Source: Parasitella parasitica (Eukaryota > Mucoromycota > Mucoromycetes > Mucorales > Mucoraceae). Taken from it: 64,000 nt of DNA. Below the pieces are notes generated by a model. The model made no database searches, had not been told where the DNA came from, and worked only from the letters and a program-made list of their open reading frames with translations. How positions within the stretch are numbered: the stretch's first letter is position 1; the number at the start of each line of letters is the position of its first letter. The stretch spans positions 1,536 through 65,535 of the forward strand of contig MU619309.1 of the NCBI GenBank assembly GCA_025201805.1, given 5' to 3'. This document shows, piece by piece, positions 42,827 to 45,554 of this stretch. Position numbers and translations under genes: made by a program.

Positions 42827-45554
42827 ATGTCCATCTTAAAGGTATTTGCGTCTAGATTCTAACAATATGCAGATGTGTTGAAATATCTGTCCGTGTATAT
42901 AGTACGCTGCGTCTTCCCCTTCAAGACTTCTTTGGCCATCAATCCAGAGGAATACACATTCGGGCATCAGGCTGTTCTCCCTTGATTCCCAGCAGCAGCA
43001 AACTATGGGCCTAGTTTACGAGAAGATTGATGATAATATCATTACCGTGAAAAAGAGGTATGTCACGTATTGTACAAAAGAACAAAGAAAATGCCAACAA
43101 AGGCCATAGGTTAAACCGCCCCTTGACGTTATCTGAGAAAATTCTATACGGGCATTTGCATGAACCCCACACTCAGGAAATCGTGCGAGGATCTTCTTAC
43201 CTGAAGCTCTTTCCCGATCGCATTGCTTGCCAAGACGCCACTGCTCAAATGGTTCTCTTACAGCTCATGGCTACCGACATTTCTCGAGTCCACGTCCCTA
43301 CCACAATCCACAGTGACCATTTGATCGAAGCACAGCGAGGGGGCAAAGCCGATTTATCTCGAGCCAAGTATATCAACAAGGAGGTGTACGATTTCTTGGC
43401 TAATGCATCTGCCAAGTACGGTATTGGATATTGGAAAGCAGGATCTGGTATAATGCATCAAATTTTACTCGAGAATTACGCATTTCCTGGCGGACTCATG
43501 ATAGGCACTGATTCTCACACTTGCAATGCGGGCGGCTTGGGCATGCTGGGCATTGGTGTAGGCGGCTCTGATGCTGTAGATGTGATGGCTGGCAAAAGCT
43601 GGGAGTTGAAATGTCCAAAAGTCATTGGTATCAAGCTAAACGGTCATCTTTCGGGCTGGGCGTCGCCAAAAGACGTTATTTTGAAGATAGCCGGTATACT
43701 TAGTGTGAAAGGTGGTACAGACAGCGTGTTGGAGTATTTTGGAGAAGGCGTCGAGTCGATTTCTTCCACAGGTATGGCAACTATCTGCAATATGGGTGCT
43801 GAGGTAATGATAAAATACGTAATTGGTTGAAAAAAAGCATTTATGTTGTGTATGTTGCCCTATTAGGTTGGTGCTACATCCTCCGTATTCCCATACAATC
43901 AACGTATGAGCGACTTCTTAAAGGCCACGGATAGACAACAGGTTGCTGGTTCAGCAGAAAAGTATGCGCGTAACTTGCAAGCAGATGAAGATGCCATGTA
44001 TGATGACTTGATTGAAATCGACCTTTCAACATTGGAACCTCATGTGAACGGCCCGTTCACCCCCGACTTGGCGACGCCTTTGTCTTTGTTCAAAATGCGT
44101 GCGAGACAAGAAGGCTGGCCTGAAACACTTAGCGCTTCACTTGTTGGCTCAGATACAAACTCGTCTTATGAAGACATGAGCAAATCTGCCTCCATTGTGC
44201 AGCAAGGTTTGAACAAGGGACTTAAATCAAGAGTACCGTTCTTGGTAACGCCAGGATCTGAGCAACTAAGAGCGACTCTGGAGCGTGATGGACAATTGAG
44301 TTTATTTGAGCAAGTAGGCGGTACCACCTTAGCTACAGCATGTGGCCCTAGTATCGGTCAATGGGATCGCAAACAAACTTTGCAAGGGGAAAAGAATTCA
44401 ATTATGATTTCTTATAATAGAAATTTTTCTGGAAACAACGATAGTAACCCTAACACTCACGGGTTTATAGTATCTCCCGAGGTAACTGTTATGGAATGGT
44501 TCACATGTGTACGAAGATGACTAAGGAAACTTATGCTTTAGATTGCAACAGCCATGGCATTTGCTGGAAAAATTACATTTAACCCTATGACAGACTCCAT
44601 GGTGGGATCAGACGGAATCCCTTTCAAATTTAAGGCACCTACCAGTCCTGATATTCCGCCCAAGGGCTATGCCGCTTACAGCACTGACATGTACCAAGCT
44701 CCTCCAGAAGATGGCTCGGATATCGAAATCAATATCAATCCTCACTCGGACAGACTTCAGATTTTGCCTCGATTCCCTGCTTGGGACGGAAAAGATTTCG
44801 AATCATTACCTATTTTGACCAAAATCAAAGGAAAATGTACCACTGATCACATCTCCATGGCAGGCAAATGGCTCAGATATCGTGGGCATCTAGAACACAT
44901 ATCCAACAACCTCTTGATTGGGTCTACAAATTCAGAAGGTCAAGTCAATCAGTCTGTCAATGTCTTTACAAACGAGACAGCTTCTATTCCCGAAACAGCC
45001 CGCGATTATAAAGCTAGAGGCGTATCCTGGGTCATCATTGGCGAAGAGAATTATGGTGAGGGTTCATCTCGTGAGCATGCTGCTATGGAACCAAGATATT
45101 TGAATGGTCTCTCGGTCATTGCAAAGGTAAATAGCAGTTGTTAAAAGACCCTCTGAAAAGATAGAACATTGACCGTTCTTACTCTGTATATACGCAGTCT
45201 TTTGCTCGTATTCATGAAACCAACCTGAAAAGAAATGGCATTCTGCCACTCACTTTTAGTGTTCCGGATGATTACGAGAAGATTGACCCTTCTGATAGAG
45301 TCAGTATTGTTGGCCTGACTAATATCAAACCAGGAAATCCCTTGACATTGCGATTGCATAAAAGCACAAACACTACGATCGATATTCCTTTAACTCATAC
45401 ATTTAACCAAGGTAAAAAAAAAAAAAAAAAAATCAAAAAAATCAACGATCTTCAGGAACTACTTAACACTAACATCTTTGATACGTATTATATAGAACAA
45501 CTTGAATGGTTTAAACAAGGTTCAGCTTTGAATGCGATGACTCTTGATAAATAA
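42827..45554 (+). CDS. Mitochondrial aconitase paralogue lacking Fe-S ligands
   Basis: The fold is that of a full aconitase: 778 residues from seven exons (42827-42841, 42903-43057, 43110-43803, 43867-44481, 44542-45126, 45198-45411, 45496-45554), all phases agreeing. A tiny first exon joins 'MSILK' to 'YAASSPSRLLWPS', giving a good mitochondrial presequence. Kept active-site blocks are 'HSDHLIEAQ', 'GTDSHTCNAGGLGM', 'IEIDLS', 'SDRLQIL', 'CTTDHISMAG' and 'GEGSSREHAA'. However, the first cluster Cys is Asp384 ('VGSDTNSSYEDM'; canonical GSCTNS). The second is kept (Cys447) and the third is Ser450 ('ACGPSIGQWDR'; canonical CGPC). The substrate Arg of the SYNRNFxGR block is Asn478. It can hardly hold a [4Fe-4S] cluster, so normal aconitase activity is unlikely. 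The gene looks intact, not decayed. Confidence 0.9.

Follow-up and report, generated by a model that had tools for sequence, protein, structure and literature searches.

We report a mitochondrial-type aconitase gene that has lost two of the three cysteines of its iron-sulfur cluster and one substrate arginine. It was found in a 64,000-nucleotide stretch of Parasitella parasitica DNA (GenBank assembly GCA_025201805.1, contig MU619309.1, positions 1,536 to 65,535 of the forward strand), which is called the window here. The product is probably a mitochondrial pseudo-aconitase, without the ability to hold the normal [4Fe-4S] cluster and retained as a binding protein.

Seven exons separated by GT..AG introns were joined in frame into 778 amino acids and a stop (Table 1). 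Pairwise alignment with pig aconitase placed Asp384, Cys447, Ser450 and Asn478 at pig Cys358, Cys421, Cys424 and Arg452. A preliminary description of the locus had proposed these four states and an exon chain of this length free of phase errors. Both proposals were confirmed by the exon joining, the codons and the pig alignment. All three cluster cysteines were present in 204/204 conventional rows of our alignment, and Asp/Cys/Ser was found at these sites in both altered copies, the window protein and its closest relative among the matches listed.

The remaining active site was well kept. We located by motif 22 positions that we take, from work on pig aconitase, to be catalytic, and 19 of them were retained. 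The substrate arginines are presumably Arg447, Arg452, Arg580 and Arg644 in pig numbering; Arg452 was replaced by Asn478 and the other three were retained. The catalytic base, pig Ser642, was retained as Ser668. In addition, Cys195 was new in both copies, at a site (pig Pro169) where 203/204 conventional rows have proline and the remaining row has a gap. The Asp and His of the DSHTPN motif surround the fourth iron (Fe4) in pig aconitase (PMC8184944). Cys195 adjoins Asp191 and His193, the counterparts of these residues.

Since only one of the three ligand cysteines remains, a normal [4Fe-4S] cluster is unlikely. The citrate-isocitrate reaction of aconitase depends on this cluster and on Arg452, so it would be unlikely in a protein that has lost both.

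The protein otherwise resembled pig mitochondrial aconitase (ACO2; 5ACN/1ACO, TIGR01340) over its whole length. The match scored 1021.8 bits over residues 43-774. The match to IRP1 was only 150.7 bits, which placed the window protein nearer to mitochondrial aconitase. The four-domain fold was indicated by sequence for the window protein, and by profile and model for its closest listed relative, a Mucor circinelloides protein (P0001). The predicted model of P0001 agreed with the pig fold with a template modelling score (TM) of 0.91 and a root-mean-square deviation of 2.3. Its TIGR01340 score was 1111 bits against a cut-off of 825, so automatic annotation would call it aconitate hydratase. The N-terminus of the window protein held four Lys/Arg and no Asp/Glu through residue 32, and P0001 began similarly. 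By inspection it is a putative mitochondrial presequence.

Relatives of the gene and constraint after the loss

P0001 was the best of the database matches listed, with 87% identity over the full length. All four states (Asp, Cys, Ser and Asn) were present in it, and its presequence was similar. It is the representative of 36 sequences clustered at 90% identity, and the sequence of this representative was the one examined. Because all four changes recur in this independent protein, they are due neither to chance nor to base-calling error, and an assembly or base-calling error was rejected. An orthologue with the same changes, which the preliminary description had named as a check, was thereby found. 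The remaining 231 of the 232 proteins listed from a full-length and a region search had Cys/Cys/Cys/Arg. Each search had about 8000 hits, of which the best 120 were listed, so rarer members with ligand loss may be missed.

A PF00330 profile search of the assembly (30.7 Mb, 232 contigs) gave five loci. These were the pseudo-aconitase gene, a Leu1-like isomerase in the window, two aconitases on other contigs (C23 and C115), and a gene on C79 that was homoaconitase-like by inspection. GSCTN, CGPC and GRND were all intact in the C23 and C115 proteins. A catalytic-type paralogue with GSCTN and CGPC had been predicted and thus exists twice. The C23 protein was 98% identical to Mucor lusitanicus P0068. 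The C115 aconitase (L003) was found as a 730-amino-acid frame that runs off at WFKHG, where Mucor velutinosus P0004 continues SALNLM, so a further intron is probable close to the end of the C115 gene.

The phylogenetic tree was built from 64 rows, comprising the window protein, the C23 and C115 aconitases and 61 hand-chosen proteins of the 232 listed. Support is given as the Shimodaira-Hasegawa-like approximate likelihood ratio (SH-aLRT). The window protein and P0001 formed one clade with a support of 100. The stem of this clade was 1.2 changes per site, and the ends were short (0.10 and 0.14). The clade joined an aconitase of Radiomyces spectabilis (P0003), in which the ligands and the substrate arginine (Cys/Cys/Cys/Arg) are intact, with a support of 98 for all rows and 98 without seven outgroup rows. 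Grouping with the C115-type paralogues was rejected by the approximately unbiased test (p-AU 0.008). P0003 had 15 rare residues in common with the pair, the most among the 204 conventional rows. The next, with 11, was P0152 of Calicophoron daubneyi, an unrelated animal protein. The branches of P0003 and of the pair are long, which makes the grouping less sure, and it could be long-branch attraction. If the grouping is true, it provides an ordered pair of states, with the ligands intact in Radiomyces and lost in Mucor. A fast-evolving aconitase of Gilbertella persicaria (P0092) was seen in the C115 group, with an end branch of 0.49 and all cluster ligands retained.

The losses were common to both copies, so the differences between the copies arose later. 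We graded 745 columns by conservation in the 204 conventional rows and counted the amino-acid differences between the two copies. The copies differed in 7/275 columns with at least 99% conservation, 6/125 with 90-99%, 26/188 with 60-90% and 48/157 below 60%. Altogether 87/745 columns differed, and the one of these that was a gap was left out of the significance test. The contrast was significant when split at 90% conservation (p = 5e-14). None of the 22 active-site positions differed. Random substitution to equal protein divergence gave a mean of 4.6 stops, and zero stops were obtained in 0.5% of 200 runs. No stop or frameshift was seen in either copy. The low rate of difference at conserved columns and the stop simulation argued that the gene is under purifying selection as a protein. 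The earlier proposal of a gene conserved after ligand loss, and not a pseudogene, was supported by the intact frame, the constraint pattern and this simulation.

We also considered a decaying copy, in which catalysis was lost and the gene drifts under weak selection with breakage not yet visible. The long stem and the weak codon bias would fit such drift. The 87 differing columns would fit it as well when set against the 98% identity of the C23 protein to its Mucor counterpart, which is a comparison of a different species pair. However, family-invariant sites differed 12 times less often than variable sites, and neither frame was broken. The presequence start and the C-terminus were alike in both copies, and the losses predate the split of the two copies. 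We therefore regard decay as improbable.

Possible functions of the altered aconitase

For the favoured reading, a binding protein without catalysis, we propose the following course. An aconitase gene would have been duplicated in the Mucorales line, and one copy would have been relieved of its duty in the tricarboxylic acid (TCA) cycle by the two conventional paralogues. A burst of change would have converted two cluster-ligand cysteines to Asp and Ser and the substrate Arg452 to Asn, with purifying selection thereafter. The product would be imported into the matrix and would take the predicted aconitase fold. Like cysteine mutants made in the laboratory, it would be locked in a form that lacks the usual [4Fe-4S] cluster, and it would not produce isocitrate. 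It might then act by binding. The likeliest role, by analogy, may be that of a nucleic-acid- or citrate-binding matrix protein. Nucleic acid would be the most likely partner, as for yeast Aco1p on mitochondrial DNA, although we hold this choice as tentative. A tricarboxylate in the largely intact pocket would be less likely.

This analogy has a known basis. Cluster-free IRP1 acts on nucleic acid without catalysis. The C437S mutant of IRP1 binds the iron-responsive element constitutively (PMC2854138), and yeast Aco1p has been reported to maintain mitochondrial DNA independently of catalysis (PMC6124551; PMC11431987). Both share the aconitase fold with the pseudo-aconitase, and a non-catalytic action on nucleic acid may be shared as well. 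However, Aco1p and IRP1 are bifunctional proteins with all ligands, whereas the pseudo-aconitase is permanently without two.

Several results weighed against this reading, and the proposed binding role is its weakest step. The 19 active-site residues kept are more than a pure scaffold needs. On the stem, 28/275 invariant columns changed, and changes were not enriched at the active site (3/22 versus 28/275, p 0.39). This indicated that the ligands were lost in a general burst of change and not by visible targeting. The structural model is that of P0001 and not of the window protein. It was poorly determined at 284-286, just past the Glu288 equivalent, and a control model had no such stretch. 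The effective codon number was 55.1, compared with 33.2 for the C23 gene, 48.8 for the C115 gene and 55.5 for the neighbouring SET/MYND gene. This nearly unbiased codon use suggests a modest or low expression. Only one orthologue cluster was seen among the best 120 hits of each search. In addition, iron overload has been put forward as a rival explanation for the loss of mitochondrial DNA in yeast aco1 (PMC11431987).

The retained pocket could instead belong to a re-ligated metal enzyme. Here Asp384, Cys447, Ser450 and perhaps Cys195 would bind either a modified cluster or a lone metal ion, and the protein would be a hydro-lyase with a changed substrate owing to the replacement of Arg452 by Asn. 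Asp and Ser are possible metal-binding side chains. The base Ser668 was among the 19 retained residues, all 22 positions were identical in the two copies, and Cys195 was new in both. A precedent is aconitase X, a member of the superfamily with an altered ligand set, which holds a [2Fe-2S] or [3Fe-4S] cluster by cysteines placed differently, and in one mutant of which a Glu may bind iron directly (PMC8184944). Aconitase X itself has a cysteine at the His147 position, where the pseudo-aconitase retains His173. Against re-ligation, two of the three ligands were lost along with the substrate arginine, and we know of no related enzyme with an Asp/Cys/Ser ligand set. We thus consider re-ligation unlikely. 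Its fullest form is rather unlikely as well. In that form, the four residues would make up a natural metal site of a kind not known to us from the superfamily. The protein would be an oxygen-tolerant hydro-lyase or an iron or metal sensor in the Mucor mitochondrial matrix, and its tricarboxylate substrate would be a changed one.

It is very improbable that the gene is of the Aco2p/AcoB type, which would make it a homocitrate dehydratase or a relative of the inactive Aspergillus enzyme. The site of yeast Aco1p Arg604, which we take to be pig Arg580 from the yeast numbering, is occupied by Arg607 in the window protein. The Lys of Aco2p and AcoB was not found there, and Cys ligands were lost instead. 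AcoB is likewise a second fungal mitochondrial aconitase. It is transcribed and enzymatically inactive, and its deletion gave no phenotype (PMC3556520). According to that report, AcoB and Aco2p retain virtually all active-site residues with the exception of Lys for Aco1p Arg604, and the inactivity of AcoB has no obvious cause in the sequence.

Inactive fungal aconitases were already known from AcoB, and we file the pseudo-aconitase as an aconitase-family pseudoenzyme. Our literature searches, which covered listings and the openings of abstracts, gave no description of a mitochondrial aconitase in which cluster cysteines have been lost. The need of the cluster for the second jobs of aconitase has so far been probed with laboratory mutants. 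Here, evolution seems to have separated them. A conserved copy seemingly unable to hold a normal cluster would be a clean test of non-catalytic aconitase function. It is also a warning, since family models give such a protein the name aconitate hydratase with a high score, as seen for P0001.

Gene structure and neighbouring genes

Both the first intron and the intron within the presequence of the C23 and C115 genes come after a Lys codon, in phase 0. The second intron lies just before LNRPLT in phase 2, at the same place as in both paralogues (all compared by eye). These matches in place and phase showed a true gene duplicate, and a retrocopy origin was rejected. At the sites of the other four introns, the C23 and C115 genes have uninterrupted reading frames. 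Retention of intron 6 would add 28 residues to the last domain, Lys-rich at the start (GKKKKKKIKK). These 28 residues were not present in the P0001 protein.

Table 1. Exons of the pseudo-aconitase gene and other features of the window (positions in the window)
Feature	Position	Strand	Content
Pseudo-aconitase gene	42827..45554	+	seven exons
Exon 1	42827..42841	+	presequence start, MSILK; P0001 start similar
Exon 2	42903..43057	+	presequence remainder and domain 1 start
Exon 3	43110..43803	+	retains Gln103, Asp126, His127, His173, Asp191, Ser192, His193, Asn284, Glu288
Exon 3, detail	codon 43522	+	new Cys195 within DSHTCN
Exon 4	43867..44481	+	Asp384 (GAT) at 44152, Cys447 (TGT) at 44341, Ser450 (AGT) at 44350, Asn478 (AAC) at 44434; PF00330 match
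Exon 5	44542..45126	+	retains Asp595, His596, Ser598, Arg607, Ser668, Ser669, Arg670
Exon 6	45198..45411	+	C-terminal domain
Intron 6	45412..45495	+	84 nucleotides, no in-frame stop
Exon 7	45496..45554	+	C-terminus EQLEWFKQGSALNAM..., stop; P0001 C-terminus near-identical
Leu1-like isomerase	54132..56501	+	PF00330 and PF00694 in one frame; named by inspection
SET/MYND-type gene	40926..42461	+	single exon; MYND match just below cut-off
Lyase exon	32654..33340	-	PF00206; class II fumarase by eye
Helitron_like_N domain	29272..30363	-	expectation value (E) 1.6e-46

The Leu1-like isomerase is found downstream of the pseudo-aconitase gene, at a distance of about 9 kb. It is a distant paralogue and not a close duplicate, so the nearness of the two looks like coincidence. 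About 365 bases separate the end of the SET/MYND-type gene from the pseudo-aconitase start codon downstream of it. The lyase exon, which by eye belongs to another TCA enzyme, lies about 9 kb upstream, and the Helitron_like_N domain marks a Helitron-type transposon remnant or copy. Among the database proteins, a snail aconitase model of 1298 amino acids (P0002, Batillaria attramentaria) contained a PF10193 segment together with a further, incomplete aconitase end. This odd architecture is probably a gene-model or assembly error.
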